From Myroides odoratus DSM 2801 (lineage in GTDB: Bacteria; Bacteroidota; Bacteroidia; Flavobacteriales; Flavobacteriaceae): 64,000 nucleotides of DNA. The stretch covers positions 3,914,616 to 3,978,615 of the forward strand of contig NZ_CM001437.1 in assembly GCF_000243275.1 (NCBI RefSeq), written 5' to 3'. The position numbers and the translations under genes are program-made. Under the pieces are notes generated by a model. The model was not told where the DNA came from and did not search any database. It worked only from the letters and a program-made list of their open reading frames with translations. Positions 24,850 through 55,784 of the stretch are shown one piece after another (the stretch's first letter is position 1; every line of letters starts with the position of its first letter).

Positions 24850-25494
24850 ATGAACTATAAAAAATTTGATGTAGAGTCTTGGAATAGAAAAGAGCATTTT
24901 TATCACTTTAAAAACCAATTGAGATGTGGGTTTAGTTTAACCACTAAAATAGATATAAGTAAGGTGATACTCTTTATAAGAGAACATGAGTACAAGTTCT
25001 ACCCTACGATTATTTACTTAATAACTAAAGCGGTTAATAAGCATTCTGAGTTTAAATTTGCCATGAAGGATGGAGAGTTAATACAGTGGGATACTGTTAA
25101 CCCAGCTTATACTATTATGCATCCTGAAACAGAGACATTCTCAGAATTATGTTCTGTGTATAAAGGAGATTTTAAAACCTTTTTAGAAGAGTATGATCGA
25201 GTATATGAGAAATATAAAGGAGATTACTCAATGTCACCACAAAGAGAAATAGAGAATATATTTAATATTTCTATGATTCCTTGGGTGAGTTTTGATGGAT
25301 TTAATTTAAATGTACCTGGTTTTGGTGATTATTTTGCTCCAATTTTTACATTGGGTAAGTATATTAAAAACAATGAAGAAATATTGATGCCTATATCAAT
25401 ACAAGTACATCATGCGACATGCGATGGACTTCATGTCGCTAAATTACTACATAGCTTACAAGAGCTATGTGATAATATAGAAGAGCTGAAATAA
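24850..25494 (+). CDS. type A chloramphenicol O-acetyltransferase
   Basis: 214 residues, the usual length for the trimeric CAT family that acetylates the 3-hydroxyl of chloramphenicol. The start (FDVESWNRKEHFYHFKNQLRCGFSLTTKIDIS) is characteristic. The catalytic histidine lies in the HHxxxDG motif (VHHATCDGLH) near residue 187. The middle PWVSFDGFNLN segment is also conserved in the family. It is a single-gene cargo of the ICE with its own upstream promoter-like element. Resistance is expected from family membership, but the level and substrate cannot be read from sequence. Confidence 0.9.
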   Translation: MNYKKFDVESWNRKEHFYHFKNQLRCGFSLTTKIDISKVILFIREHEYKFYPTIIYLITKAVNKHSEFKFAMKDGELIQWDTVNPAYTIMHPETETFSELCSVYKGDFKTFLEEYDRVYEKYKGDYSMSPQREIENIFNISMIPWVSFDGFNLNVPGFGDYFAPIFTLGKYIKNNEEILMPISIQVHHATCDGLHVAKLLHSLQELCDNIEELK

Positions 25495-28933: not shown

Positions 28934-29638
28934 TTAAAAACTATTTAAAAGTGTGATTAATTCAAGTGGTGTGTTGATTTCATAATCAGGTTTATCATTC
29001 CAGTTTTTTGTGTCTGAATTGCTATACTTTACAGCTATAGAAATGACTGTACCATTATTGTTTAATTCTTTTTTTATGTTTTTAGCAAATGTTACATCTC
29101 CTTCATGATCTCCAATGTATATAATGTTCTTATTATAGAAGTTAGTAAAGATTTGCTCTAAACATTTTAGTCCTCCAAAAGGATTAGGTTTTTGCATATT
29201 ATTTGGTATATCATCATATCCAATAACAGATTTGAACTTATGTTGAAGGTTATTTGATTTTAAAACTTTAAGTATATTATTTGATGAATTTTGAGAGCAA
29301 ATACCTTGAGGTAAATCAATTTGTGTAATAGTTTGTTTAATATCAGAAAACAATTCGACAGGGGTTGTGTTTTTTAATTGATATTCAGTCCAAAGAGTAC
29401 CCGCTTCAAGCATTTCACTCTCTGTCATTCTGTAATAATTTACGTACAAATCTTGCCAGTTTTTGGATTGGTGATTAGCAATATGATATTGACTTTCAGA
29501 TTTTAAATATATAGGAAGATTCTCATTTGTTAATCTAGGGGCGACCTTAGCTAATATTTCTTTAGTAATATCAATATTTTTAGGAACAGAGTTTACTAAT
29601 GTTCCATCATAATCCCAAAGAATAGCATCAATTTTCAT
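28934..29638 (-). CDS. HAD-family hydrolase
   Basis: 234 residues with the HAD motifs in order: DYDGTLVNS (motif I, nucleophile Asp9 in AILWDYDGTL), GICSQNSSNN (motif II region, with the serine in SQNSS), the lysine in NNMQKPNPFGG (motif III) and IIYIGDHEGDVTFAKN (motif IV). The helical cap lies between motifs I and II, like phosphoglycolate-phosphatase relatives. The substrate is unknown. It lies between the YbaK-like gene and the mobilisation genes and reads toward the former, so it too is cargo. Confidence 0.88.
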   Translation of the reverse strand: MKIDAILWDYDGTLVNSVPKNIDITKEILAKVAPRLTNENLPIYLKSESQYHIANHQSKNWQDLYVNYYRMTESEMLEAGTLWTEYQLKNTTPVELFSDIKQTITQIDLPQGICSQNSSNNILKVLKSNNLQHKFKSVIGYDDIPNNMQKPNPFGGLKCLEQIFTNFYNKNIIYIGDHEGDVTFAKNIKKELNNNGTVISIAVKYSNSDTKNWNDKPDYEINTPLELITLLNSF

Positions 29639-29804
29639 AGTTATGTGTTTATTATAAATTTATTTCGTCCAAAGACTAAAGTACAAAGTTATAAGTAAAA
29701 AATTAAAAGAGTGTTTGATTATTTCCAAATACGACCTCTAAGAGCCATTAGAAGTTTAGCGATATAAGTATTTCCTATTTTGACAAAAATCAAGATAAGA
29801 AACC
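29639..29804. other. region upstream of the mob genes, possible oriT location
   Basis: In related mobile elements the transfer origin lies just upstream of the mobilisation and relaxase genes. This 166-base stretch is the only space there. I see no strong inverted repeat and no nick-site sequence I can assign, so placing oriT here rests on position alone. Confidence 0.25.
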
Positions 29805-30233
29805 ATGCAAACTACCACTAAAAACAAAGGAGGAAGAAAACTAAAATCCAATCCTAAAAAATACAGACATGTTTTTAGACTCACTGAATCTGAAAACCAA
29901 CGATTGCTTGCTTTGTTTGCATCATCAGGAATGACAAACAAAGCAAGCTTTCTTGTTTCTATGCTTTTAGATAGACAAGTTAAAACAGTAAAAGTAGATG
30001 TTGCTGCTTTGCAATATCACGGATTACTAACTAAACTGTTTAATCAATTTAGAGCAGTAGGAGTGAACTACAACCAAATTGTAAAACTTTGTAACCAGTA
30101 CTTCTCAGAAAATAGAGCCAAACGTTCTATTTCAAAACTTGAAGAGTATACCAAAGATTTATCAAAACTTTGCTATTACATTATCAAGCTAACCAAAGAG
30201 TTTGAAGACAAGCACTTAAATACTAATCTATAA
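29805..30233 (+). CDS. mobilisation accessory protein (MobA/MobC-like)
   Basis: 142 residues. A basic N-terminus (KNKGGRKLKSNPKKYRHVFRLTESENQRLLALFASSG) resembles a ribbon-helix-helix DNA-binding domain. It is followed by the LLTKLFNQFRAVGVNYNQIVKLCNQYFSENRAKRSISKLEEY segment typical of relaxosome accessory proteins. It precedes the relaxase gene by three bases. The protein is expected to bind near oriT and help the relaxase. Confidence 0.88.
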   Translation: MQTTTKNKGGRKLKSNPKKYRHVFRLTESENQRLLALFASSGMTNKASFLVSMLLDRQVKTVKVDVAALQYHGLLTKLFNQFRAVGVNYNQIVKLCNQYFSENRAKRSISKLEEYTKDLSKLCYYIIKLTKEFEDKHLNTNL

Positions 30234-30236
30234 GTT

Positions 30237-31505
30237 ATGATAGCTAAGATTGGTAAAGGAAGTAATCTTATAGGAGCTTTGTCCTACAATCAATTAAAAG
30301 TTGATAAAGGACAAGGTTCTGTTTTGTTTACAAATAATCTACCAGAACCAAATAACACTTCAAACTACATCACTCAACTTTATAAACACCTTGAGCCTTA
30401 TCTACTTTTAAATAATAAGACAGAGAAAGTTGTAAGACATATTTCTTTGAATCCGAATCCCAATGATAAATTAACAGACGAGACCTTAAATGAAATAGCG
30501 AAGCAGTATATGAATAGTATGGGCTATGAAAATCAACCTTACATTGTCTATAAACACAGTGATATAGAAAGAGAACACATTCATATCGTAACAGTATGTA
30601 CAGATTTAGAAGGAAAGAAAATTGATGATAAATACGATCATTTAAAATCAATGAAAGCGTGTCGTGAAATTGAAGGTAAATTCAACCTAACTTCTTCTGT
30701 AAAACAAATAGATAAAGAATCTAAACAGATTCAATTTATACCAGTTGATTATACCAAACATAATTTAAAAGCTCAAATAGCCTCAGTAATACGATATCTA
30801 CCCAAGTATTATAAGTATGATAGTCTAACAAGTTATAATGCTTTATTATCCCTATTTAACATCAGATCAGAAAAGGTTGAAGCTTCCTACAATGGACAAA
30901 CCAAACACGGTTTAGTGTACTTTGCTTTAAATGAAATAGGAGAGAAGGTAAGTAATCCTTTTAAGGCTTCCCTTTTTGGAAAAAATGCAAGTTATCAAAA
31001 TCTTGAAAGTCACTTTAAAACATCAAAAGAAAAACTAAAATCTTTACCTAATAAAGAGAACCTTAAACATACAATTGAGATAGCGTTAAATACAACAAAT
31101 TCACAACAAGAGTTTAAAGGAGAACTTTTAAATCACGGAATAAACGTTGTTTTATTCCAAAACAAAGACAATCGTATCTATGGCGTAACTTTTATCGATC
31201 ACAACTCTAAAAGTGTCTATAAAGGTTCTGATTTAAGTAAAGAGCTATCTGCTAATACACTAAATAAAAAGTGGAGTAACGCAGAAGATCATACCAATTC
31301 AATTTTAATACCTTCTCAACAAGCTAATACTAATGAATCAGACGAGTTACATCCAATGTTTGAGCATTTACATTCTGATACTACCAATTTTAATAATGAT
31401 GAGTTTTTATCATTGTTTAATCTTTTAAACAATAACCAAGAGATAGATTATGAAGAGTTGAGTTTTGAGAAAAGGATCAAAAGAAGAAAAAAAAGATCTT
31501 TCTGA
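30237..31505 (+). CDS. relaxase/mobilisation nuclease
   Basis: 422 residues. The N-terminal half is a MobP-type relaxase domain. The metal-binding histidine motif is YIVYKHSDIEREHIHIVTVCTD (residues about 102-123; HxDxxxxHxH). An upstream VVRHISLNPNPNDKL segment and the tyrosine in ALSYNQLKV near residue 18 are candidate nick residues. The C-terminal half is Asn/Lys-rich and not conserved. The enzyme nicks oriT and stays bound to the 5' end for transfer. The gene is coupled with the accessory protein. A strong terminator follows about 70 bases after. Confidence 0.9.
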   Translation: MIAKIGKGSNLIGALSYNQLKVDKGQGSVLFTNNLPEPNNTSNYITQLYKHLEPYLLLNNKTEKVVRHISLNPNPNDKLTDETLNEIAKQYMNSMGYENQPYIVYKHSDIEREHIHIVTVCTDLEGKKIDDKYDHLKSMKACREIEGKFNLTSSVKQIDKESKQIQFIPVDYTKHNLKAQIASVIRYLPKYYKYDSLTSYNALLSLFNIRSEKVEASYNGQTKHGLVYFALNEIGEKVSNPFKASLFGKNASYQNLESHFKTSKEKLKSLPNKENLKHTIEIALNTTNSQQEFKGELLNHGINVVLFQNKDNRIYGVTFIDHNSKSVYKGSDLSKELSANTLNKKWSNAEDHTNSILIPSQQANTNESDELHPMFEHLHSDTTNFNNDEFLSLFNLLNNNQEIDYEELSFEKRIKRRKKRSF

Positions 31506-32043
31506 GACAGCGCACCTAATTAGATATTCATATTATGAGCACTTTTAAAACAAATAACTATCTAGATTAAATATAAAAGCCTGTAAACTCATTCAATTTA
31601 CAGGCTTTTGTTTTGTTTTGAAACTTTTAATAGGTAATAATCCTATTTATGTTGTGGAGAAAGAGGGATTGCCTCTTTTACTTCGTATGCTTTATAAATA
31701 GGGATGTTCACTTTTTTTAATTGTAGTAAGCACCTTATTCGGAAAGTTTTATACTATGATTGAAATCATTTGATTCAATATCAAAAATAGTAATAAATTT
31801 TTATCAAAATAATATTATTGAAATGAATTTAAATGTAAAAAAACTACAACTTAATTTAGATGTAGGTTTTATATTTAAAAAATATTTTAATTCTTACAGG
31901 GAAAGAAAGAATTCTCTTTAATTCTGTACACCTTACAAGTTGGTTTATTTTTTTGAATTACGCTGTGTATCAAACTCTCAAAGTGAGAACTATGATTAAA
32001 AGATCTAACTCTATTGCAAAAAGAGTAATTTTAATAATTAGAA
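31506..32043. other. 540-base gap between relaxase and NTPase genes
   Basis: Besides the relaxase terminator near its left end, I see no gene. The rest is AT-rich, with no repeat or RNA-like fold that stands out. Two genes converge here (relaxase from the left, the STAND protein from the right). Confidence 0.6.
31575..31609 (+). terminator. terminator after the relaxase gene
   Basis: AAAAGCCTGTAAA (31575-31587) pairs with TTTACAGGCTTTT (31597-31609) around a nine-base loop, followed by G and then more T-rich sequence. Confidence 0.85.
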
Positions 32044-34827
32044 TTATAAAAACCTAATATTATAAGCATGCATTTTATCAAAATCAGATTCTAACTTTTT
32101 AAACACTACATCTTTATTAATAATTGAGTCGAATAGAATTTCAATTTTTGGAATAAATTTGGAACGATGTCCTAAATATGTTTCATCTGTTTCATTTTCA
32201 GTAATAATAGCAAATCCTTTTTCAGCATTAATTCTTGATATTTTACCATACTTTAAATTTTCTAAATCAAGATTTTCTTGCAAAATAGTATATCGATCAT
32301 TAAAATTAGGATACTTGATCTGTGGTGTTCCCTTAAATTCTCTGTGTATTCGTCCCATATATCTTTTAAATTGTATTTCATCATTGCTATTAATATAGTG
32401 TTCAGCTAAGTTTAGCAATGAGTTTAATTTATAGGAAAGTTGTTTATTAGTATACGCTTGAGAATTTGCAACATTACTTAGAGCTTCTATTGCCTTTGGA
32501 TACTCTTTTCTTTCCAAAAGCATTGTACCTTTTCTTAAATTAGATTTATTTAATACGTTATATATTTTTGGATCCTTTGAATTATCACTTATTGCAGAGA
32601 AACAATTTCTTAATGCTTCATTATATTTATCTTCAGCATCTTTATAATTCTTGTTTTTATATAAACTATCCCCCCAATTAACATAGTTTTCTGCCAAACT
32701 AGTTTTACAGATAACATTATGTTTTATTGAATCAAATTTAGACTCTAATGCTTTTGATAATAGATCTTCTGCTTCTTCATAATTTCCTAATCGACATTGC
32801 GCTTGTCCATAAGCATTAAGAATAATAGGGTCTTCTGGTGATAGATCATGGGCAATTTTATATTTACTTAACGCGTCTATATGTCTTGTGCTTTTTCTTT
32901 TAATGTTTCCCCAAATTAAAAATATCTGAGGATCATGTTTATCTAAAGTAGCTGCTTTTTCCATTAAGCTATCAGCTTCAGAAAGATGATCTTCATATGC
33001 TTCCATTAAAGCCCAATTACGATAAACGGGAGCAAAATTCGGAGCAGTTTTAATAGCTCTTTTGTACTCCTCCAAAGCTCCTTCATAATCATCATTTTGA
33101 TATTTTTGAAAAGCATTCTGTGCAATAATAGTTGCTACTTTTTCTTCATCTGTTTTTGCACCATAATTATATAAACTGTGTTTATATTCTTTTTTCGCAA
33201 TTTCAGAGGCTGTGATCGTATGTTCTACTTCATTTATACGATATTTTAATTTTTCTCTTAAATCTAGTGTTTTAGACGCTTGTATTCGTATAAAACTCTT
33301 CGTTAAAGGTAGTAACGAGTATTTTGTTGATATTTCGTTGTTATCATTTTGATATTGCTCTGGAATTACGAGAGATGATAAAATTAATTCTTCAATGGCA
33401 TCTTCAAAATCATCTTCATTTAATTCTACAACATATTGTAAAACTGTAGCAGTAGGTATCTTCTCTACTAAACTTAATGTCAACAAGATTTTTTGAGAAT
33501 TCTCATTTAATGATGAATAGATTTCATCAAAACAAAATTTAGAAATATCACTATCTGATGTATTTATCTTATCTATAATGGAATTAATATCTTTTCCTCT
33601 TGCAACTTGCCCAACAACCCATTTAATCGCTAAAGGATAATTCGATACTTTTTCAACGTATTTACTAATAATCTCATCTTTAAGTTGTGACAGTTTAATT
33701 AATCCTTTATCTTTTGCAATTTGTCTAAATAAATAAACAGCTTCTTTTTGTTTAAGTTCTCTTAGCTCATGCCTTCTTTCAATTTGTCCTAAACCTTTTC
33801 TTGATGTAATCAAAAATTTTACATTTAAAGGGGCATCATATATAAAATTAATAATTCTTTGATCTGTTATAGTCTCAAGGTTATCAACCACAATCAAAAT
33901 TTTTTCATTTATCTCAAAGATCTTATTAACAGATATTATTTTTTCTTCAATTGAGTCTAAAATTGGAAGATCAAACATATCAATAATAATATTAAGTAGT
34001 TCCTCGAAATCTTTTAAGGATGGCTCAATATCTTCTATTCCTAAATCAGATAATTTATTTTCTTTAGCACTTAACCAAACTATAGTATCTAGATTTAATT
34101 TGTTTCCCTCTTCTAATATATCTTGTATAATTCTTAAAGACAAGGCTGTTTTACCTACACCTCCAGACCCTGTTATTGTAACAACAGGAAACTTAGGAGA
34201 GGATAAATATTGGATGATTTTTTTTCTATCTTCATCTCGCCCAACAAAACCACCATCATACTCATAGTCTGGTGTGGGAAGGTTATTTATTATGCCTATT
34301 TTATTATAAGTATCAATATAGAAATCAGTTGGTACGGTTAGTAAAAAATCCGAATTAGTGTTTTCTTTTAGGTTATCTATTAAATCTAAAATAATTTTTA
34401 ATTGTAGTTTTTTAGATAATATTTCAGTGAATTCAATTAATTTTTCTAAATCTATTGAAGAGAAACTTCCTTTTATATGGGCTATTTTACAACGTAAATC
34501 ATAAAGTTGATCCATATATAATATAAAATCATCTTTACTAAAACCTTCATTTATTAATAGTTTAAAATGGTCTTTAAATATTGTTATTTCCTTTAAATCA
34601 GGAAAATCAATATTTTCAAAAAAATCTAACGAGCTTTCAAAATCGCCATTATTTCTATCTTTAGCTTTTTGAACTATTCCTTTTGGTATATAAATATAGA
34701 ATGAATCATATTTTCTATTTAGAAAATTATTTAAGAGTAATCTGAAATTTTCTTCAAACCTAGATATTATAGTATAACCAACATCTCTTCTATTAGATAT
34801 AATCATTTTAGTAATCATTTTAAACAA
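32044..34827 (-). CDS. STAND NTPase: HEPN, NB-ARC, TPR and cold-shock-like domains (candidate anti-phage protein)
   Basis: 927 residues, four parts. Residues 1-150: a helical HEPN-like domain with the RxxxxH signature (LYDLRCKIAH, R112 and H117), resembling Swt1-type HEPN. Residues 190-560: an NB-ARC-type STAND ATPase, with GGFVGRDEDRKK, Walker A TITGSGGVGKTAL (about 218-229), Walker B KILIVVDNLE (about 309-318), sensor VKFLITSRKG and YPLAIKWVVG as the GLPL-like motif. Residues 565-840: TPR-like repeats (FAPVYRNWALMEAYEDHLSEADSL and similar). Residues 855-927: a cold-shock/OB-like unit (YGKISRINAEKGFAII...AYNIRFL). STAND proteins of this type sense invader molecules and trigger an effector, here plausibly HEPN RNase. 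The sensor role and target are inference. Confidence 0.8.
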   Translation of the reverse strand: MFKMITKMIISNRRDVGYTIISRFEENFRLLLNNFLNRKYDSFYIYIPKGIVQKAKDRNNGDFESSLDFFENIDFPDLKEITIFKDHFKLLINEGFSKDDFILYMDQLYDLRCKIAHIKGSFSSIDLEKLIEFTEILSKKLQLKIILDLIDNLKENTNSDFLLTVPTDFYIDTYNKIGIINNLPTPDYEYDGGFVGRDEDRKKIIQYLSSPKFPVVTITGSGGVGKTALSLRIIQDILEEGNKLNLDTIVWLSAKENKLSDLGIEDIEPSLKDFEELLNIIIDMFDLPILDSIEEKIISVNKIFEINEKILIVVDNLETITDQRIINFIYDAPLNVKFLITSRKGLGQIERRHELRELKQKEAVYLFRQIAKDKGLIKLSQLKDEIISKYVEKVSNYPLAIKWVVGQVARGKDINSIIDKINTSDSDISKFCFDEIYSSLNENSQKILLTLSLVEKIPTATVLQYVVELNEDDFEDAIEELILSSLVIPEQYQNDNNEISTKYSLLPLTKSFIRIQASKTLDLREKLKYRINEVEHTITASEIAKKEYKHSLYNYGAKTDEEKVATIIAQNAFQKYQNDDYEGALEEYKRAIKTAPNFAPVYRNWALMEAYEDHLSEADSLMEKAATLDKHDPQIFLIWGNIKRKSTRHIDALSKYKIAHDLSPEDPIILNAYGQAQCRLGNYEEAEDLLSKALESKFDSIKHNVICKTSLAENYVNWGDSLYKNKNYKDAEDKYNEALRNCFSAISDNSKDPKIYNVLNKSNLRKGTMLLERKEYPKAIEALSNVANSQAYTNKQLSYKLNSLLNLAEHYINSNDEIQFKRYMGRIHREFKGTPQIKYPNFNDRYTILQENLDLENLKYGKISRINAEKGFAIITENETDETYLGHRSKFIPKIEILFDSIINKDVVFKKLESDFDKMHAYNIRFL

Positions 34828-35107
34828 CCTATTATAAAGTTGTATGGGTTAAAAAATTGTTATAATGAAACATAGCATACATAAACAAAAAACAAGTAAT
34901 TATTCAATATAGTTAAAATAATTATCTTAAATGTTTTAACTATAATTACATCTTATTAAAAGTATTGTAGATGTTTATTTAAATTTCAAATATACAAAAC
35001 TATTATCATGAATTTTTACGGAAATACGTAAACCCCTCAATATTTTGAGTCTACCTACCATCCCCAAAAAAAACACGACTTCGGAGTAGTTTTCCAGCCC
35101 TCTTCAA

Positions 35108-35166
35108 GAGCAAGTAGTTTTGATAGCACGAACGTAGTTTCGAGTGCCTCAAAACATAACTTGCTC
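35108..35166. repeat. three-part inverted repeat (long imperfect hairpin)
   Basis: GAGCAAGT (35108-35115), TTTTGA (35118-35123) and GCAC (35126-35129) have their complements in matching order at 35159-35166, 35149-35154 and 35144-35147. Together they make an interrupted stem of 18 pairs with a loop of 14 bases. It could be a protein-binding or nick-associated structure near the transfer operon. It has no T-run, so it is not a terminator. Confidence 0.5.
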
Positions 35167-35419
35167 TCATCTTTCGATGAGTAATTCCACCAATTTTACA
35201 AAGTAAAATCTATAGTGATTTCATAGTAATAAATCACCCACTATTTGACGCTAAAATGCCAAATATTACCACAAAATGCCATAAATCAGATTCAGGTGGT
35301 TTATGAAGTTTCTTTGTATGTATAATCATATTTGCATAGGTAGATAGATCAGTTGCTTTGCACTGATGTATCTAAAAAAGTAAGTAATGAGGTCATTACG
35401 CACATTAGTATATAATTAG

Positions 35420-35655
35420 AGTAACAAGTAGTTATTTAAGTATCTATTATGCTAAGTACAAACGTAGCTATTCAACTATTTATGTGAAGTATTGCATAGA
35501 AAAGTATATAGCTAAATAGGTAGTTTGAAACTTAGCTAAGTATTTGATTAGGCTTATAGTTCACTACTTAACTAAGTAAAAAGTTACTGAGATAGCTGAC
35601 CACAAACTTACTAATGGATTGAAGTATCTATTTACTAATGCAGATAGCTAAATAC
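35420..35655. repeat. iteron-like cluster with TTAGCTAA palindromes upstream of parA-like gene
   Basis: ACTTAGCTAAGT (35530-35541, perfect palindrome) and ACTTAACTAAGT (35566-35577, one mismatch) are the clearest units. Variants such as ATGCTAAGTAC, TATAGCTAAATAG, AAGTATCTATT (twice) and ATAGCTAAATAC surround them up to the start codon. Such a cluster directly before a ParA-type gene fits a centromere-like or operator site. Confidence 0.5.
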
Positions 35656-35663
35656 ATACAATT

Positions 35664-36431
35664 ATGAAAACAAAAAAAGAACCAATTTTTGTGGCATTCT
35701 CATCTCAAAAAGGGGGAGTAGGTAAAAGTACATTTACCACATTAGTGGCAAGTATTTTACATTATCAGATGAATTACAATGTAATTGTCTTTGATGCTGA
35801 TTTTCCACAGCATAGTCTTGTGAAAATGAAAGAGCGAGATTTATCTATCGTTATGGAAAATGAGGTACTCAAAAAACTTGCTTATAAGCAGTTTACAACG
35901 ATTAATAAAAAAGCCTACCCAATATTACAAGAGAAGGCAGATAATGTACTCAGCGCAGCCAAACAATTTATACGTGAGTCAACTATACCAGTTGATGTAG
36001 TTTTCTTTGATTTACCAGGAACGGTTAATACCGCTGGAATCTTAAATGCATTATCGGGCATGCACTATATTTTTACGCCTATCAAAGCGGATAGAGTAGT
36101 GATGGAAAGTACGCTTGTTTTTACACAACTTTTGCGAGATGTTGTGATGAAAAAATCAGAGACAGCAATACACAGTATAAATCTGTTTTGGAACCAAGTA
36201 GATGGGAGGGAAAGTACTCCTTTGTATGATGTCTATAACCAAGCTATTAAGGAACTGGATTTTAGTTTGATGCAAAGTCAGATTAAAAGTAGTACGAGAT
36301 TTCGTAAGGAGAGTGAAGTGACAAGCAAGTTTGTTTTCCGTTCCACTTTACTACCTCCAGATAAACGTCTTAGTAAAGCTAGTGGCTTAGACCTTTTTAT
36401 AGAAGAGTTTTTAACAATCATCCAACTATAA
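35664..36431 (+). CDS. traA: ParA-family ATPase (TraA-like) of the conjugative element
   Basis: 255 residues with the deviant Walker A motif SSQKGGVGKSTFTT at residues 11-24, a VIVFDADFPQHSL switch I segment and VVFFDLPGTVNTA as the Walker B region. These are ParA/MinD-type features. In CTnDOT-like elements the first tra gene is of this family. The iteron-like repeats before it suggest a role in DNA binding with the two DUF3408 proteins that follow (four and eleven bases apart), rather than in the channel. Confidence 0.87.
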   Translation: MKTKKEPIFVAFSSQKGGVGKSTFTTLVASILHYQMNYNVIVFDADFPQHSLVKMKERDLSIVMENEVLKKLAYKQFTTINKKAYPILQEKADNVLSAAKQFIRESTIPVDVVFFDLPGTVNTAGILNALSGMHYIFTPIKADRVVMESTLVFTQLLRDVVMKKSETAIHSINLFWNQVDGRESTPLYDVYNQAIKELDFSLMQSQIKSSTRFRKESEVTSKFVFRSTLLPPDKRLSKASGLDLFIEEFLTIIQL

Positions 36432-36435
36432 TACC

Positions 36436-36861
36436 ATGGAAAAAGAAAACAAAAAACAACAGCATATTGATGAAGAACTAATGATGAGTCTAATGGTTGA
36501 TGGAGTGAGAAAAGAAGGAATCAAAGAACCGTCTCAGGATATTGAAAAAGTAGAAGAGAGAAAGACAGAGGACACTCCTTTGAAGAAGAACTCTGTTTCA
36601 AAACAAAAGAAACAAACAAAGCAATCTGTTGAAACAGATTACGAGAGTATCTTTTTTAAAAAATCTGACACCAATGCCAGAGATGGTAAGACAGTGTATA
36701 TAAGACCTGAATTTCATGAAAAACTAACTCGCATCATTCACATAATAGGTGAGGATAAAATAACAATTTATGCCTATTTAGATAATTTGTTAGACAATCA
36801 CTTTGATGAGTTTGCTCAGCAGATTACCAAGAGTTACAATGAAAAATATAAACCAATTTAA
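36436..36861 (+). CDS. DUF3408 protein (TraB-like)
   Basis: 141 residues. The N-terminal 70 residues are charged and probably disordered. The C-terminal part (GKTVYIRPEFHEKLTRIIHIIGEDKITIYAYLDNLLDNHFDEF) is the DUF3408 domain, which has a ribbon-helix-helix-like pattern and probably binds DNA as a dimer. It lies between the ParA-like gene and a second, shorter copy, and is likely the ParB-like partner by position. That role is inference. Confidence 0.82.
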   Translation: MEKENKKQQHIDEELMMSLMVDGVRKEGIKEPSQDIEKVEERKTEDTPLKKNSVSKQKKQTKQSVETDYESIFFKKSDTNARDGKTVYIRPEFHEKLTRIIHIIGEDKITIYAYLDNLLDNHFDEFAQQITKSYNEKYKPI

Positions 36862-36872
36862 TACCAAGAAAC

Positions 36873-37145
36873 ATGAAAAATCTATTCAAAAAAACAGAAG
36901 AAAAAAACGATACTAAGAAATATGAGGATCAGTTTTTAACTAATCGATTACCTGCAAATAGTAAAGGAAAAGTGGTATACATCCGCCCTGAACACCATGA
37001 GGTACTTATTCGCCTTGTTCAATTATCTAAAGAAAATAAGACAACGCTCTATGCCTATATCGACAATATTTTAGAACAACATTTAAAAGATCATGCGGAT
37101 GATATCAAGGCTTATTTTCAGCAACATTTTAAACCAATTCTGTAA
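36873..37145 (+). CDS. short DUF3408 protein, paralogue of the preceding gene
   Basis: 90 residues, nearly all domain: GKVVYIRPEHHEVLIRLVQLSKENKTTLYAYIDNILEQHLKDH. It closely parallels the C-terminal domain of the gene just upstream, including the ending YFQQHFKPIL versus YNEKYKPI, so the pair arose by tandem duplication. They may form heterodimers. Co-transcribed with traA. Confidence 0.82.
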   Translation: MKNLFKKTEEKNDTKKYEDQFLTNRLPANSKGKVVYIRPEHHEVLIRLVQLSKENKTTLYAYIDNILEQHLKDHADDIKAYFQQHFKPIL

Positions 37146-45937: not shown

Positions 45938-47497
45938 ATGTCAGAAGAACAAAAGAAAATATTAGAACAACAGCTTTGGAATATTGCCAATACGTTGAGA
46001 GGAAAGATGAATGCAGATGAATTCCGAGATTATATTCTTGGATTTATTTTCTACAAGTATTTAGCAGAAAAAATGGAAATCTATGCGAACTCCATTTTGC
46101 AAGAAGATAATATTGAGTTTAGCAGTATTGATGAAAATTCAGCTGTAGGAAAAGAATATATTGATGCAATTAGAGAGGAAGCTTTGGAAACCTTAGGCTA
46201 CTTTTTAAAGCCTTCTGAGCTTTTTAGTGAGATAGCAAAAAGAGGAAGTGGAGGTACTAACACTTTTATCTTAGAAGACTTACAGAAAATTTTAACGAAT
46301 ATTCAGTTAAGTACTATGGGAACTCAAAGTGAAGAAGACTTTGATAACCTATTTGAAGATATGGATCTTAATAGTACTAAACTTGGTAAAACGGCTGAAG
46401 CACGTAATGAAATTATCGTAAAGGTTTTAGTTCATTTAGATGAAATTGATTTTAAATTAGAACATACTGAATTGGATGTTTTAGGAGATGCTTATGAGTA
46501 TTTAATTGGTCAATTTGCAAGTGGTGCTGGTAAAAAAGCTGGAGAGTTTTATACTCCTCAAGAAGTTTCTAAGATTCTGGCAAAGATCGTTACTACAGGA
46601 AAGAATAGATTAAAATCTGTATATGATCCTACTTGTGGTTCAGGTTCTTTATTGTTACGTGTTGCGCGTGAAGTGAAAGATGTCAATAATTTTTATGGAC
46701 AAGAGATGAACCGAACAACGTATAACCTTGCAAGGATGAATATGATTTTGCATGGTGTACATTATTTAAAATTTGATATTAAACAAGAAGATACGTTAGA
46801 GCATCCTCAACATTTGAATGATATGCCATTTGAGGCTATTGTTGCAAATCCACCTTTCTCAGCTAATTGGAGTGCTAATCCACTATTTTTAAGTGACGAT
46901 CGCTTTAGTCAATATGGTAAACTTGCACCTGCAAGCAAAGCTGATTTCGCTTTTGTTCAGCACATGATTTATCACCTTGCTGAGAATGGTACGATGGCGA
47001 TTGTTTTACCTCATGGTGTGTTATTTAGAGGAGCAGCAGAATTACATATTCGTAAGTATCTTATTGAGCAAAAAAACTACTTAGAGGCAGTAATTGGACT
47101 TCCTGCTAATATCTTTTATGGCACAAGTATTCCAACTTGTATTTTAGTGTTTAAGAAATGTAAAGAGGATCCTAATCATATTTTATTTATCGATGCAAGC
47201 AAAGACTTTGAAAAGGTAAAGAACCAAAACATGTTGCGTGAGGAACATATTGAGAAAATTGTAGATACTTATCGCAACAGAACCGTAATCGAAAAATATA
47301 GCCATTTAGCTACTTTAGAAGAAGTTGCAGAAAATGATTATAATCTAAATATCCCCAGGTATGTTGATACTTTTGAAGAAGAAGAAGAGATCGATATACA
47401 TGCTGTAATGAAGGAAATAAAGTCTTTGGAAGCTAAGCGTGCTGAATTAGACAAGGAAATTGATGTTTATTTCAAAGAACTAGGACTAGTTTTTTAA
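45938..47497 (+). CDS. hsdM: type I restriction-modification methyltransferase subunit
   Basis: 519 residues. The N-terminal helical domain (LEQQLWNIANTLRGKMNADEFRDYILGFIFYKYLAEKM) is followed by the N6-adenine methyltransferase domain with motif I DPTCGSGSLLLRV (about 230-242) and catalytic motif IV ANPPFSANW (about 303-311). The fragment GEFYTPQEVSKILAKIV is also characteristic. It forms the modification enzyme with HsdS (next gene) and with HsdR cleaves unmodified DNA. The system is carried as ICE cargo immediately after the tra operon. Confidence 0.95.
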   Translation: MSEEQKKILEQQLWNIANTLRGKMNADEFRDYILGFIFYKYLAEKMEIYANSILQEDNIEFSSIDENSAVGKEYIDAIREEALETLGYFLKPSELFSEIAKRGSGGTNTFILEDLQKILTNIQLSTMGTQSEEDFDNLFEDMDLNSTKLGKTAEARNEIIVKVLVHLDEIDFKLEHTELDVLGDAYEYLIGQFASGAGKKAGEFYTPQEVSKILAKIVTTGKNRLKSVYDPTCGSGSLLLRVAREVKDVNNFYGQEMNRTTYNLARMNMILHGVHYLKFDIKQEDTLEHPQHLNDMPFEAIVANPPFSANWSANPLFLSDDRFSQYGKLAPASKADFAFVQHMIYHLAENGTMAIVLPHGVLFRGAAELHIRKYLIEQKNYLEAVIGLPANIFYGTSIPTCILVFKKCKEDPNHILFIDASKDFEKVKNQNMLREEHIEKIVDTYRNRTVIEKYSHLATLEEVAENDYNLNIPRYVDTFEEEEEIDIHAVMKEIKSLEAKRAELDKEIDVYFKELGLVF

Positions 47498-47535
47498 TTT
47501 TTTATATCCTTAATGTTATTACTAACGAAAATTAA

Positions 47536-48735
47536 ATGATTAAAATGACAAGTAAAAGATTAAAAGATAAGAAGGTTCCTAATTTGAGATTTCCAGAGTT
47601 TGAAGGAGAGTGGGAAACGAAGAAGTTGAGGGAATTTGGTGAAATAAATCCAAAATACAAAAAGTTTCCTAGTTTGTTTGTCTACATTGATTTAGAGAGT
47701 GTATCCAATGGACGTCTTTTGAAAGAGGAATTTATAAATGAGAAAGAAGCTCCAAGTAGAGCTCAAAGAATACTTGAAAAAGGTGATATCTTATTTCAAA
47801 TGGTCAGACCATATCAAAAGAATAATTTATTTTTTAACAAAGAAGGAAGATATGTTGCTTCAACTGGCTATGCTCAAATAAGAACAAAACAAAATCCACA
47901 ATTTGTTTTCCAATATTTACATAATCAGAAGTTTGTTGACAAAGTTATAGAAAGATGCACAGGGACAAGTTACCCTGCTATTAATTCATCAGATTTAGGA
48001 AATATTCATATTCATTATCCTCATTTAAATGAACAAAGTAAAATAGCCTCATTCCTATCACTTGTTGACGAACGAATACAAACCCAAAACAAAATAATTG
48101 AGTATCAAGAAACCTTAATGTTAGGGGTGTTGACTAAAATTTTTACCCAAAAACTAAAATCAAATAGTATAAGAACCAAAGAATTTCCTTTATGGACATA
48201 TAAAAAAGGAGGTGACATTTTTTACAATTGTTCTAATAAAAAACATAATTCAGATTTACCGATTCTTGCTATTACTCAAGAATATGGTGCTGTACCTAGA
48301 GATTTAATAGATCATAATATAACAGTAACTGAAAAGAGTATTGACAGTTATAAAGTGGTTGATAAAGGTGATTTTATCATTAGTTTAAGGAGTTTTCAAG
48401 GAGGTATTGAATATTCAAATTACCATGGAATTTGTAGTCCAGCATATATAATATTAAAAAACAGTATTGATATAGTACCAGAATTCTATAAACACTATTT
48501 AAAATCAGCAGCTTATATAAAGTTATTGAATAAGAAACTAGAAGGGATTAGAGACGGGAAAATGATTAGTTACAATTATTTTTCAGAGATAAATTTACCA
48601 TATCCATGTCTGGAGGAACAGAAATATATAGCTGATATTCTTACTACAATTGATAATAAAATAAAGATAGAGAAGCAGATGTTAAACTCGTTAAGTAAGC
48701 AAAGAGATTATTTACTACAACAAATGTTTATCTAA
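47536..48735 (+). CDS. hsdS: type I restriction specificity subunit, expressed copy
   Basis: 399 residues with two target-recognition domains (about 25-165 and 215-345). Each is followed by a conserved helix (SKIASFLSLVDERIQTQNKIIEYQETL and KYIADILTTIDNKIKIEKQMLNSLSKQRDYLLQQMFI). The two domains read the two halves of the DNA target. It follows hsdM and faces a second hsdS on the other strand. A 25-base repeat at 47572-47596 (coding for VPNLRFP) and a 22-base repeat at 48081-48102 (central spacer) are shared in inverted orientation with that copy, so its recognition domains can be exchanged. Confidence 0.93.
   Translation: MIKMTSKRLKDKKVPNLRFPEFEGEWETKKLREFGEINPKYKKFPSLFVYIDLESVSNGRLLKEEFINEKEAPSRAQRILEKGDILFQMVRPYQKNNLFFNKEGRYVASTGYAQIRTKQNPQFVFQYLHNQKFVDKVIERCTGTSYPAINSSDLGNIHIHYPHLNEQSKIASFLSLVDERIQTQNKIIEYQETLMLGVLTKIFTQKLKSNSIRTKEFPLWTYKKGGDIFYNCSNKKHNSDLPILAITQEYGAVPRDLIDHNITVTEKSIDSYKVVDKGDFIISLRSFQGGIEYSNYHGICSPAYIILKNSIDIVPEFYKHYLKSAAYIKLLNKKLEGIRDGKMISYNYFSEINLPYPCLEEQKYIADILTTIDNKIKIEKQMLNSLSKQRDYLLQQMFI
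47572..47596. repeat. inverted repeat IR-N, copy in hsdS
   Basis: 25 bases beginning AAGGTTCCTAATTTGAGATT, exactly complementary to 49932-49956. Similarity continues for about 35 further bases with a few mismatches. Recombination here would exchange the whole recognition part of hsdS. Confidence 0.9.
48081..48102. repeat. inverted repeat IR-C, central spacer copy in hsdS
   Basis: 22 bases beginning AACCCAAAACAAAATAATTG, exactly complementary to 49387-49408. Recombination here would exchange only the second recognition domain. Confidence 0.88.
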
Positions 48736-48740
48736 TATAA

Positions 48741-48771
48741 AAGGCAAGAAATGATTAACGTTTCTTGCCTT
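48741..48771. terminator. bidirectional terminator between the two hsdS copies
   Basis: AAGGCAAGAAA (48741-48751) pairs with TTTCTTGCCTT (48761-48771) around nine bases. It lies near the middle of the invertible segment, so it serves whichever copy is read. Confidence 0.85.
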
Positions 48772-48777
48772 ACTATT

Positions 48778-49975
48778 TTAAACGAAAAGATTATCTAAAA
48801 GATATTTTTTCTGGTTATCTAATTTCTGTAGAAAAGTATTTTCTATATCAATTTTAGTATTTAAAGATACTAAGATATTGGATATCTTCTGTTGTTCTTG
48901 AATTGATGGAAAAGGTATTACAATAGAACTCATCGTTCCATTCATAAGTTTTGGATTACCAACATAAGAAACATATTTATGTGAAACAGAATTGATTAAT
49001 TCTGCTATACAATGATTCGCATTACCATTAGAATTTAATAATACACCACAAACATTTGTGCAATAAAATTTTCCTTCCCGATAATTTACATCACCAGCAT
49101 TAGCTCCATCAGTAGTCCAAGTAATGGCATTCTCAAATATAAAGTTATTATAGTAACCTGCTAAACCTTTGTTTTTTGTTTGTGAAGAGTAAACAGGGTA
49201 ATTATTTTCATTATCTTTATCATTGGACAACAAGCTCATTGATAAAACATTACCTCTGGTTATTGTAAAAACATCACCTATCTCTTTAAATTCCCATCTA
49301 GAGAATTCATTACCATTATTATCTTTAAATCTCAAGTTTTGAGAGAATATCTTTTTTGATATACTTGTCTTTAATGTTTCTAACTCCTCAATTATTTTGT
49401 TTTGGGTTGTTATCCTTTCATCTATTAGAGATAGAAATGATGCTATTTTTTGTTGTTCAATGATTGAAGGGAGAGACAAAGTTACAGAGGCTAATATTTC
49501 TTGACCAACATTATATCTTGTACTTCCTCCTGATTTTGATGTTATTTGATTTCTTACAAAACTAGTTTTTAATGCTTTATTTAAAAATATAGGTTCATAT
49601 TCTCCAATTTGTTTTCCTCTAATTACAAATCCACCAAACGTTGCAGTCTTGTGTTTATCTAAATATACGCTAGTTGTTCCTACTTCTTCTCGAGTTTCTG
49701 AACTTCTTTGAAACAAAATATCTCCATAATTCACAGGAAACTTATTTATAATCTCATTCGTCACATTTACGCTTCCGATAATTTTATCGTATGTTATAAA
49801 CTCATTACTTAAGATATCTAATACGTTTATAAACTTATATCCATTACCATATTGTTCTTTTGTTGCATTTATACCATTCTTAAACTCCAATAAATCCCCC
49901 AACTTCTTCGTTTTCCATTCTTCTTCAAATCCTGGAAATCTCAAATTAGGAACCTTAGAACCTAAGCTATCACTA
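48778..49975 (-). CDS. hsdS: silent second hsdS copy lacking an ATG start
   Basis: A type I specificity subunit in inverted orientation. From LRFPGFEEEWKTKKLGDLL it carries two recognition domains and two conserved helices (QQKIASFLSLIDERITTQNKIIEELETL and QQKISNILVSLNTKIDIENTFLQKLDNQKKYLLDNLFV), about 388 residues. Upstream the frame stays open (NPSDSLGSKVPNLRFP) to about 50008, but holds no ATG and no obvious promoter; the TTG of the LRFP codon is the only possible start in the shared repeat. It looks like a storage cassette, complete in its domains, expressed only after inversion places it behind hsdM. This is the usual design of phase-variable type I systems. Confidence 0.85.
49387..49408. 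repeat. inverted repeat IR-C, copy in silent hsdS
   Basis: Exact complement of 48081-48102, at the same place between the two recognition domains. Confidence 0.88.
49932..49956. repeat. inverted repeat IR-N, copy at the 5' end of silent hsdS
   Basis: Exact complement of 47572-47596. The segment between the two IR-N copies (about 2.4 kb) is the largest invertible unit. The recombinase gene starts 73 bases further on. Confidence 0.9.
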
Positions 49976-50028
49976 GGATTAAATATCCTTAATTGTTTTC
50001 CTTTGGCGTTTTAAAATATAAATACAGA

Positions 50029-50955
50029 ATGAATACACAAAAACAACTTTCAGAAGTAATTGAGCTATGGAAAATAGACAAACAGCAATATGTGAAAAAA
50101 TCAAGTTTTTCAGCTTATACTCTTTTGATTGAAAATCACTTATTACCCATTTTTGGAGAACAATATGAAATTGAAGAAGCAGATGTACAAAACTTTGTAC
50201 TTCAAAAATTAGAAGGAGGATTGAGTCATAAAACAATTAAAGATATTTTGATTGTCTTAAAGATGGTATTGAAGTTTGGAGCTAAGAATAAGTGGTTGAG
50301 TTATACGCCTTTTGATATACAGTTCCCAACAGAGCGAGAAAAGCAAAATTTAGAAGTACTCAGTCGAGCTGAACAAAAAAAGATAATGAACTACATACAA
50401 GATCATTTTACATTTAAGAATTTAGGAGTTTATATCTGTTTAAGCGCAGGGATCCGTATAGGAGAAGTCTGTGCCCTTACTTGGGAAGATATAGATACTG
50501 ATAATGGTGTTATAAGTATTAATAGAACTATTCAAAGAATTTATTTGATAGAGAATGGTGTCAGAAGAACTGAGTTAATTTTAGACACACCAAAGACAAA
50601 AAATTCCATTCGCGATATACCTATTAGTAAAGATTTATTAAGAATATTAAAGCCTTTTAAAAAAATAGTAAACCCTACTTTTTTTGTACTAACTAATGAT
50701 GCCAAGCCTACAGAGCCAAGAACGTATCGTAGCTATTATAAAAAACTGATGAATGAATTAGATATGCCTGAATTAAAATTTCATGGATTAAGACATAGCT
50801 TTGCGACTCGTTGTATTGAGAGTAATTGTGATTATAAAACAGTTAGTGTGCTTTTAGGTCATTCTAATATTAGTACAACCTTAAATTTATATGTTCATCC
50901 TAATATGGAGCAGAAAAAAAAGGCAATTGAACAAATGTTTAAGACATTAAGGTAA
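50029..50955 (+). CDS. tyrosine recombinase of the hsdS inversion system
   Basis: 308 residues from the ATG giving MNTQKQLSEVIELW; a longer frame adds 12 residues without family character. It has the phage-integrase SAM-like N-terminal domain and the catalytic residues: Arg143 (SAGIRIGEVCALTWED), Lys in TPKTKNSIRDIPI, His252-Arg255 (FHGLRHSFATR), His278 (LLGHSN) and Tyr288 (TTLNLYVHPN). It lies next to the inverted hsdS and before hsdR, the position of Bacteroidota specificity-shuffling invertases. It resembles neither the ICE integrase in size nor in the Arg region. Its role in inversion is inferred from position and the exact inverted repeats. Confidence 0.88.
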   Translation: MNTQKQLSEVIELWKIDKQQYVKKSSFSAYTLLIENHLLPIFGEQYEIEEADVQNFVLQKLEGGLSHKTIKDILIVLKMVLKFGAKNKWLSYTPFDIQFPTEREKQNLEVLSRAEQKKIMNYIQDHFTFKNLGVYICLSAGIRIGEVCALTWEDIDTDNGVISINRTIQRIYLIENGVRRTELILDTPKTKNSIRDIPISKDLLRILKPFKKIVNPTFFVLTNDAKPTEPRTYRSYYKKLMNELDMPELKFHGLRHSFATRCIESNCDYKTVSVLLGHSNISTTLNLYVHPNMEQKKKAIEQMFKTLR

Positions 50956-50967
50956 AATTATTATCAC

Positions 50968-51057
50968 TATGAATTAGGAGAAATGAGTGGGAGTATGTAT
51001 ATTTTGTTAAATTTGTTTACAAATCAAATATTCACCTTTTTTAACTCCTAATTCATA
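50968..51057. promoter_or_regulatory. possible invertible promoter before hsdR
   Basis: TATGAATTAGGAG (50968-50980) and its exact complement (51045-51057) flank 64 bases that contain TAAATTTG (51008-51015), a match to the -7 consensus, and a palindrome ATTTGTTTACAAAT (51011-51024). The present orientation points at hsdR, but no good -33 element is seen. The repeat core TCCTAATT is shared with the hsdS IR-N repeat, so the same recombinase might act here. This is inference. Confidence 0.4.
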
Positions 51058-51063
51058 ATTATT

Positions 51064-54181: not shown

Positions 54182-54799
54182 ATGAGTGAATCTGTTAGTA
54201 ATCAGGTTTTAGAGAAGATTTCTAAATCTAAACGTGGCGAAATTTTTTTCGCTAATGATTTTATTAAATATGGCACATCTGATAATATTCGCCAAGTACT
54301 TTCACGTTTAGAAAAAGAAAAACTTATTGAACGACTAGCCCAAGGTATTTATATAAAACCTAAGCAAGATTCTTTGTTAGGAACAATATATCCAGGTATA
54401 GAGGAAATTGCAAATGAGATTGCAAAAAGAGATAAGGTGCGTATAGCTCCAACTGGTGTATTAGCATTATATCTATTGGGACTAACAACTCAAATACCAT
54501 TAAAGACTGTTTATTTGACTGACGGGTCTCAAAGAGAAATTAAGGTTGGAAATAGGAAGATTAATTTTAAGAGGACTGTCCCTAAAAATCTTATGATAAA
54601 AGATAATCTATTACATTTAGTAGTGCAGGCTTTTAAAGAAAAAGGGCAAAAACAAATTACAGATTCTTTTTTAAATACTATTAAATTAACTATTGATAAA
54701 ATAGATCAGCAAGTGATAGAATCTCAATTGAAATTTGCTCCAGTTTGGATTCAAAAAGAAATTAAAAAACTTTATTATAAAGAGGAGTATGTGGATTAA
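54182..54799 (+). CDS. AbiEi-type antitoxin (DUF6088-like)
   Basis: 205 residues. The N-terminal winged-helix-like part is SKSKRGEIFFANDFIKYGTSDNIRQVLSRLEKEKLIERLAQGIYIKPKQDSLLG. Then follows the AbiEi-type C-terminal region (IAPTGVLALYLLGLTTQIPLKTVYLTDGSQREIKVGNRKINFKRT). In the AbiE type IV toxin-antitoxin system this antitoxin represses its operon and blocks the toxin effect. The toxin gene overlaps its end by 11 bases. The upstream inverted repeat fits self-repression. Confidence 0.87.
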   Translation: MSESVSNQVLEKISKSKRGEIFFANDFIKYGTSDNIRQVLSRLEKEKLIERLAQGIYIKPKQDSLLGTIYPGIEEIANEIAKRDKVRIAPTGVLALYLLGLTTQIPLKTVYLTDGSQREIKVGNRKINFKRTVPKNLMIKDNLLHLVVQAFKEKGQKQITDSFLNTIKLTIDKIDQQVIESQLKFAPVWIQKEIKKLYYKEEYVD

Positions 54800-55784
54800 T
54801 TTATCAGAAGAGCAAAGAGTTACTGTACTAAAACAAGCTGAAGCAGTTTATGGACTACCAGCTTTTGTAATAGAGAAAGATTGGTGGGTTTGTATTCTTT
54901 TAAAGGCAATATTTCAATCTAAATATGCAGGTTCTATTATATTTAAAGGAGGAACTTCACTGAGTAAGGCTTATAGTTTAATACAACGATTCTCAGAAGA
55001 TATTGACTTGATTATTGACAGACGTTTATTGGGGTTTGATGAGCTTGATTCTAAAACACAAATAAAAAAACTTAGAAAGGCTTCTGGGGGATTTATTATT
55101 AATGAATTTAGAGAAGAGTTAATACATCAATTAACTGAGTTGGGAGTAAATCCGAGTTTATATGAAATTAAGTATAACAATCATGTTGATGATACAAGTG
55201 ACCCCAATACTTTAGAGGTTTATTATCAATCAAGTGTCCCTGCTACTAATGCATATATTCAACAGCGTGTTTTACTTGAAATGGGGGCTAGATCGTTAAC
55301 TGAGCCAGCTGAGTCAAAATCTATTATTTCATATATTGATTCGGAATTTTCAAAATCGCCTTTTGCTATGCCTACATTTAATGTAGAAGTTGTTGTTCCC
55401 ACTCGTACTTTAATTGAGAAAGTATTGTTATTGCACGAAGAATTCTCAAAGCCTATTGAAAATATTAGAACTGATCGATTGACTAGGCATTTTTATGACA
55501 TAGACAAAATTATGGATTCAGAATTTGGTGAACAAGCAATAGTTGATGATGATTTGTTTACTAATATTGTTGAACATCGACAAAAAGTAACGCCTTTAAG
55601 AGGGATAGATTACTCAAATCATAAAAAAGGTAAATTGAGTATTTTACCTCCAGAAGAACTACTTGAAAGATGGGCAGAAGACTATAAAACAATGCAAGAG
55701 CATATGATCATTGGAAATAGTTTAAACTGGACTGATTTACTTAATCGTTTAAAGGAGATCGAAAATAAATTTAATAAGATTTAA
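54789..55784 (+). CDS. AbiEii-type nucleotidyltransferase toxin
   Basis: 331 residues from the ATG in MWINLSEEQRVTVL, which is preceded by AGAGGAG; the longer frame lies within the antitoxin gene. The nucleotidyltransferase motif is FKGGTSLSKAYSLIQRFSEDIDLII (GGTSLSK at 54-60, catalytic D71 and D73). A conserved RTLIEKVLLLHEEFS segment follows near residue 210. AbiEii toxins transfer nucleotides to host RNA and abort infection. Carried as a defence or maintenance module beside the type I system. Confidence 0.9.
   Translation: MWINLSEEQRVTVLKQAEAVYGLPAFVIEKDWWVCILLKAIFQSKYAGSIIFKGGTSLSKAYSLIQRFSEDIDLIIDRRLLGFDELDSKTQIKKLRKASGGFIINEFREELIHQLTELGVNPSLYEIKYNNHVDDTSDPNTLEVYYQSSVPATNAYIQQRVLLEMGARSLTEPAESKSIISYIDSEFSKSPFAMPTFNVEVVVPTRTLIEKVLLLHEEFSKPIENIRTDRLTRHFYDIDKIMDSEFGEQAIVDDDLFTNIVEHRQKVTPLRGIDYSNHKKGKLSILPPEELLERWAEDYKTMQEHMIIGNSLNWTDLLNRLKEIENKFNKI

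Follow-up and report, generated by a model that had tools for sequence, protein, structure and literature searches.

A 64,000-nucleotide stretch of the Myroides odoratus DSM 2801 genome (contig NZ_CM001437.1, positions 3,914,616 to 3,978,615; hereafter the window) carries a gene on its reverse strand in which a HEPN domain, an NB-ARC ATPase, tetratricopeptide repeats (TPR) and a C-terminal cold-shock-like domain (CSD) with an OB fold are joined in a single protein. This HEPN-NB-ARC-TPR-CSD gene probably encodes an NLR-like (STAND) defence switch made of one protein and borne as cargo on an integrative and conjugative element (ICE), a candidate anti-phage suicide sensor. This reading was based on the domains, on invariant catalytic and nucleotide-binding motifs, on the likeness of the N-terminal fold to AbiF and on a cold-shock-like barrel recovered by prediction and profile. 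It was further supported by the scattered occurrence of the gene, by its place in an ICE slot whose contents are exchanged, and by the defence or mobile genes found around some of its relatives.

At rest, the NB-ARC domain would keep the protein closed, and a trigger at the distal TPR/OB end, for which the preliminary description proposed a phage protein or RNA, would open it. Nucleotide exchange and oligomerisation of the NB-ARC part, as in the STAND family, may then pair the HEPN domains into active RNases, as in AbiF and other HEPN proteins; HEPN RNases typically work as dimers (PMC12165695, PMC13092281). RNA cleavage would arrest or kill the infected cell, and the ICE and kin would be protected. 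If true, a HEPN RNase would be added to the effectors of bacterial NLR-like switches.

Domains of the protein

The open reading frame (ORF) comprises 927 codons from a TTG at 34827, which is merely the earliest possible start; an ATG at 34818 gives 924 residues, as in the database copy P0001, and an ATG at 34806 is another possible start. Residues were numbered in the 924-residue version, in which R112 and H117 of a preliminary description of this DNA become R109 and H114. Conservation was scored in an alignment of 99 sequences: the window protein and 98 others, drawn from the 119 further proteins in the list of the best 120 of 368 homologues. The 22 of 120 that were left out were P0001, the window's own copy, and 21 that were short, truncated or similar; an OB end was missing by eye in some unaligned homologues (P0088, P0099). 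The four parts that the preliminary description placed in one 927-residue ORF were all recovered, using the ORF list, Pfam, structure models and profiles of relatives:

32044-34827, reverse strand: HEPN-NB-ARC-TPR-CSD gene, likely coding 32044-34818 (924 residues) or from the ATG at 34806
34363-34797, reverse strand: predicted HEPN domain, Swt1/AbiF-like, residues 8-152
34477-34494, reverse strand: HEPN motif RCKIAH (R109, H114), with R and H the same in all 99 sequences
33274-34263, reverse strand: NB-ARC/STAND ATPase, residues 186-515, containing FVGR and the Walker A and B motifs; Pfam NB-ARC; VIA rows NRC1, Apaf-1 and NRC2
34147-34170, reverse strand: Walker A GSGGVGKT; G217, G219, G220, V221, G222 and K223 invariant in 99 of 99
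33883-33897, reverse strand: Walker B strand, with D312 of DNLET at its end; D312 and N313 the same in all 99 sequences
32269-33198, reverse strand: TPR superhelix, residues 541-850; Pfam TPR families and model; proximal part conserved, distal part variable
32047-32256, reverse strand: predicted cold-shock-like OB domain, residues 855-924; modelled as five strands, Pfam CSD E-value 0.038, profile link to archaeal tails

Motif and modelled fold together predict that the N-terminal domain is likely a HEPN RNase. An R....H string is weak evidence when taken alone, given that 153 of 2000 shuffled versions of residues 1-165 contained one, and the evidence lies in its invariance. R109 and H114 were identical throughout the alignment, and Rx4H was present in all 120 listed proteins (best 120 of 368), as R..IAH in 119 and as RCKIVH in P0026. 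An inactive HEPN domain was rejected because the motif is invariant. An AlphaFold2 model of the N-terminal domain was all helical (predicted local distance difference test, pLDDT, 89.7; predicted template modelling score, pTM, 0.86), and of its top five VIA rows four were AbiF, which was the best fold match, one chain from the MntA-HepT complex and two structures of HEPN domains. The RxxxxH, HEPN-like domain named in the preliminary description thereby held up in the model as well as in the motif. Foldseek of the HEPN model against PDB and BFVD returned nothing at an E-value of 0.001 or better. In Pfam, HEPN_Swt1 was matched by six of nine family N-termini scanned (as top match in five) at E-values of 1.6e-5 to 0.1, all under the cut-off of 27.5 bits, and the other three had no match. 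Abi_2 was not matched by the N-terminus at E-values up to 5, and the HEPN part of the window protein passed no Pfam cut-off.

The ATPase proved to be a complete STAND module, as had been proposed. Pfam NB-ARC was matched above its cut-off (E-value 2.1e-10, 40.8 bits vs 23.5), with NACHT below its own (E-value 0.059, 13.6 bits vs 26.7). GSGGVGKT, VVDNLET and FVGR were all found in the window protein, and across the alignment GSGGVGKT, the DNLET strand and FVGR were invariant or close to it. In the whole-protein model (pLDDT 85.4), the VIA rows for the ATPase part were plant NRC1 and NRC2 and Apaf-1. The best Foldseek row for this model was the solved structure of the STAND-TPR protein 6mfv (E-value 1.0e-12, TM score 0.27 by model length); its VIA list was filled by TPR and NLR-type chains, and the HEPN and OB ends were barely probed there. 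The TPR array was likewise recovered above cut-off, with several TPR families matched (TPR_2, E-value 5.9e-16).

Mean column entropy was 1.12 in NB-ARC, 1.23 in the proximal TPR (541-700) and 1.80 in HEPN, and was highest in the distal TPR (701-850; 2.38) and the OB tip (2.36). Among 331 pairs with at least 65% identity, HEPN was less conserved than NB-ARC in 331 and less conserved than the distal TPRs in 44. These quickly evolving ends and slow core would fit an immune switch and do not prove one. No sharp identity break was seen along close homologues, and there was therefore no sign of a domain swap.

PADLOC includes Avs models. In PADLOC-DB 2023, the window protein matched only mad8 (E-value 0.0015), with no Avs-type match, and a McrB-type match was found neither there nor among the listed 25 of 29 Pfam families. 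Several homologues are labelled "LuxR family glucitol operon activator" in the database; this transcription-factor reading was rejected given that no DNA-binding domain was present among the same listed families.

The C-terminal tip formed five strands at residues 855-923 of the whole-protein model. Its match to Pfam CSD extended across the full CSD model at an E-value of 0.038, below the Pfam cut-off; this is weak when taken alone, and the cold-shock-like assignment of the preliminary description is instead carried by relatives and a profile link. CSD matches at E-values up to 1 were obtained for 5 of 21 tails, including P0114, a canonical CSD (precomputed PF00313), and a profile of the 21 tails returned 42 PDB rows, of which 38 were named cold-shock, Y-box or CSD (best E-value 4.9e-5). 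The same names made up 28 of 29 rows for the Lokiarchaeota tail L025 (best E-value 0.0056), 16 of 16 for the L019 tail (0.00093) and 36 of 41 PDB rows for a profile of six archaeal tails (9e-6). When 20 tails of the window subfamily were compared with the archaeal profile using hhalign, they aligned over 72 columns at 97.7% (E-value 2.4e-12), vs 0.1% for a distal TPR segment as control. Because relatives' tails match cold-shock proteins and the subfamily aligns with the archaeal profile, the OB tip is judged by sequence to be cold-shock-like by descent, albeit diverged; the assignment rests on the archaeal and deltaproteobacterial relatives, the profile link to them and the predicted barrel.

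Cold-shock domains have four classical nucleic-acid-binding aromatics. Within the alignment the first RNP1 aromatic was retained (F or Y in all 99 sequences), the second was replaced (98 sequences have I, L or V) and the classical tryptophan was absent from its usual place. Y881 (Y or F in 97 of 99) lies one place off the fourth, and the histidine was retained in 42 of 99. Given that the classical aromatics are only partly retained, nucleic-acid binding by the OB tip is regarded as possible.

Carrier element and relatives

Genes for a relaxase, MobC, TraM, a topoisomerase, ArdA, RadC, an integrase, type I restriction-modification (R-M) and an AbiEi/AbiEii-type pair were present in the window. 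This gene content is consistent with the ICE that had been proposed as carrier; no att or direct repeat marking ICE ends was found in the window, and the ends of the element are not fixed. The HEPN-NB-ARC-TPR-CSD gene occupies the following slot:

31799-34983, no strand: exchangeable ICE cargo slot between the relaxase and traA-type genes; the G533 match ends at 31798 and restarts at 34984

The relaxase of G533 was 98% identical to that of the window, and its slot (L117:11121-14367) held DUF4062 and DUF5457 proteins and a 357-residue protein with an RNTIVH string and no Pfam HEPN match. Past the relaxase of G020, one contig (L119:11271-17292) encoded a UPRTase, a DUF4062 protein, a CAP12/Pycsar-TIR-like protein and a 693-residue protein without a Pfam match, and another contig encoded what looks by eye like an efflux-pump set; neither contig stretch reaches the far flank of the slot. 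By this comparison the slot is exchangeable cargo, with defence-type genes in two of three sister elements and none in the third. DUF4062 is described as an anti-phage NADase (Swarozyc, preprint PMC13174449), and the slot genes of L117 and L119 are candidate defence genes. An ICE slot that swaps a HEPN-STAND gene for DUF4062 NADase genes would be a place to seek further defence genes. The gaps on either side of the window gene held only ORFs of 31-53 residues, with no sign of being genes, and the Rfam AbiF RNA (RF03085) had no match in 29000-37000 at E-values up to 1. A tight toxin-antitoxin pair was rejected on these short flanking ORFs and on the lack, by eye, of a recurrent partner ORF of at least 100 residues beside relatives.

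As judged by homology searches, the distribution of the gene is patchy. None of 36 congeners had a match beyond the TPR region. Overlapping draws, in which two candidates were scored per genome and the counts are therefore lower bounds, gave 1 of 395 for the phylum at a cut-off of 1e-60, the single hit being the source genome itself; at 1e-30 the order gave 2 of 395 and the class 4 of 395. Relatives that combine Rx4H with an OB-like tail were found in Bacteroidota, Clostridia, Bacilli, cyanobacteria, actinobacteria and alpha-, gamma- and deltaproteobacteria, and also in six archaeal contigs, two of them Asgard. The 25 relative loci included 14 matching an alignment-built HEPN profile and 11 with the motif only; 12 matched the OB profile (E-value up to 1e-3), and the remaining 13 were included by eye. 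Five were plasmid loci (two on related Acinetobacter plasmids) and one was viral, carriage that reflects the choice of collections. The short-contig relatives L011, L014 and L015 were kept outside the 25, and L013 and G948 were counted as one place. L014 (848 residues) lacked the OB tail, and remoter NB-ARC proteins (L027 onward and two cyanobacterial plasmid proteins) matched neither the HEPN nor the OB profile and had no tail by eye. A tblastn search of the phage collection gave no match, a scan of viral_contigs gave one relative (L084), and the window protein matched phrog_24039, a phage family of function not known.

Neighbouring ORFs of at least 100 residues were judged by eye on their first 60 residues; at L026 and L129-L132 the neighbours were examined for HsdM and HsdR only. 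At L019, hsdR, hsdM and hsdS were followed by the relative about 85 bp downstream of hsdS. The L021 relative was divergent from hsdM (2.5 kb), with a 519-residue ORF without a PADLOC match between them and hsdR beyond. At L025, hsdM lay at 4 kb and hsdR at 7 kb, and on a Rhizobium plasmid (L122) hsdR of a type I R-M system lay at 0.8 kb; in the window, hsdM is 11 kb from the gene. Using the window HsdM as query, HsdM was found near 4 of 25 relative loci and near 1 of the 57 loci of generic NB-ARC genes (post hoc Fisher test, p 0.028). The L016 relative was located between cas12k and tniQ, in the cargo region of a transposon (L016:2079-17982) encoding Cas12k (E-value 2.5e-199), TniQ, a TniB-type ATPase and a Mu-type transposase; the same cargo included a GmrSD gene and, also beside the relative, a gene whose product matched NACHT below threshold. 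At L017, a MspI/C5-methylase ORF (153 residues) was upstream and an AbiE-type pair 3.6-4.6 kb downstream. The viral relative (L084:9437-12052) was moron-like, between portal and tail genes. Another (L134) took up about one-third of an 8-kb Acinetobacter plasmid, and the 30-kb plasmid that carries L136 also encoded a BsuBI/PstI-type R-M pair.

Known systems and competing explanations

The preliminary description had treated the domain order as undescribed, and this did not stand. HEPN-STAND proteins of bacteria with C-terminal cold-shock-like OB folds were described by Anantharaman et al. in 2013 (PMC3710099), in a table entry and a sentence that report no experiment. In that account, HEPN domains of the Abi2/Swt1 group, most of them active, appear as fusions to "STAND-ATPase, TPR, S1", and the proteins named are Npun_F6454, MED222_16016, Desac_1927 and a B. 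cereus protein. The described order of HEPN, STAND, TPR and OB is that of the window protein, whose HEPN part may belong to the Abi2/Swt1 group. The HEPN-STAND-TPR-OB class is already known in silico, and the window protein is a further member. The architecture has been in print since 2013; an experiment on the class was not found in the open-access literature, with subscription papers outside this scope and a tested relative still possible.

Parts of the plan recur in known systems. Cold-shock domains are among the RNA-binding parts of conflict systems (Kaur et al. 2020, PMC7159879); four HEPN-containing defence systems have been validated, and defence by a CBS-HEPN protein was abolished by mutations of HEPN catalytic residues (PMC13092281). 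AbiF (8vz6, PbAbiF; PMC12373285) is a separate toxin held by a non-coding RNA, whereas the window HEPN is fused to a STAND switch; compared with AbiF/AbiD (Abi_2), the window protein is a 924-residue fusion with no Abi_2 match and no RF03085 in 29000-37000. Avs5 and other Avs proteins share an N-terminal effector, a STAND ATPase and a C-terminal repeat sensor (PMC12931631, in which the C-terminal repeats of an Avs5 protein are a likely pathogen sensor); Avs5 has nSTAND3, and the window protein has NB-ARC, HEPN and the OB tip. The TIR-STAND-TPR proteins of P4 satellites are also single proteins with an N-terminal effector, STAND and C-terminal TPR, with TIR in place of HEPN and no OB tip mentioned where they are described (PMC9122126). 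CoCoNuT type IV restriction likewise combines HEPN RNases with cold-shock-like OB folds, but uses a McrB GTPase and several genes, with no NB-ARC-TPR single protein in its description (PMC11090510). The entry title of 6mfv names just STAND and TPR, and bNACHT has a NACHT ATPase where the window protein has NB-ARC above cut-off. Animal SAMD9/SAMD9L, a STAND-like antiviral RNase, has a similar layout of nuclease, P-loop NTPase, TPR and C-terminal OB, but differs in its tRNase-SA, in extra SAM and SIR2 domains and in the loss of the Walker A lysine (PMC13245274). The parallel is one of layout only, and no homology is claimed.

Several observations weigh against a defence switch with a cold-shock-like tip. 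A profile of 20 tails without P0114 matched no cold-shock protein at E-values up to 1, and because the match was lost on this removal, the 21-tail evidence depended on P0114; 98 tails against the P0114 tail scored 4.0% (E-value 0.01), with five column-shuffled controls at 0.1-1.1%. Three of the four classical aromatics are away from their usual places in the window subfamily. No clear defence or mobile gene was seen by eye at L009, L010, L012, L013, L018, L020 or L022-L024, except for a possible insertion-sequence ORF at L020, and the R. etli relative (L133) lies among transport and regulatory genes. The preliminary description had made the defence reading depend on homologues lying in mobile or defence islands and not in housekeeping contexts, and on this point the outcome was mixed: some relatives lie beside R-M genes, in the Cas12k transposon or on the phage contig, and several others, such as L009, L010, L012, L013 and L018, have ordinary-looking neighbours.

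The protein could instead be a guard of restriction that sits beside type I R-M and fires on its inhibition, with HEPN cutting tRNA or mRNA. The PrrC anticodon nuclease fires in this way when type I R-M is inhibited, and the hsd genes near L019, L021, L025, L122 and the window gene, with the HsdM excess over control loci, agree with such a role. However, no HsdM was found in the flanks of 21 of the 25 relative loci, the association was noticed before it was tested and may just reflect shared defence islands, and the protein, unlike PrrC, has no ABC ATPase; a guard role is considered unlikely. A sensor of stress or translation state, whose OB domain would watch cellular RNA (tRNA, ribosome or cold stress) and whose HEPN domain would adjust growth, with defence not primary, would suit the cold-shock-like C-terminal fold, the conserved proximal TPR and the ordinary-looking neighbours of several relatives. 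It is held improbable in view of the patchy distribution and of carriage by an ICE, a Cas12k transposon, a phage contig and plasmids. It is very improbable that the gene serves chiefly to retain the ICE or plasmid in the cell, as an addiction or stability module: the share of the 8-kb plasmid taken up by the L134 relative would favour this, but the flanking gaps hold just the short ORFs described above, the AbiF RNA was not found, and a STAND switch is unusual for such modules.

If the gene is the defence switch preferred here, it may tentatively be seen as a prokaryotic functional counterpart of SAMD9, in which the OB tip would read RNA state and NB-ARC oligomerisation would pair HEPN for sequence- or tRNA-specific cleavage, a doubtful extension. 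The RNA state, in an equally speculative step, could be phage RNA, or host tRNA or ribosome status changed by infection or by inhibited restriction. The four-part plan spans Bacteroidota to Asgard archaea, and the SAMD9-like nuclease-NTPase-TPR-OB plan could make the role of the C-terminal OB testable in E. coli.

Other genes of the window

A chloramphenicol acetyltransferase family gene was located at 24850-25494, presumably on the same element. Within the type I R-M locus (45938-53940), an HsdS gene lay on the reverse strand at 48778-49944 and a tyrosine recombinase gene at 49993-50955. The ORF at 47536-48735 was tied to the HsdS gene by inverted repeats (65 nt, 89%; 123 nt, 72%), an arrangement that resembles a phase-variable switch of specificity. 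Between hsdR and the integrase, at 54182-55784, was a pair consisting of a DUF6088 (AbiEi-like) protein and an AbiEii-type nucleotidyltransferase.
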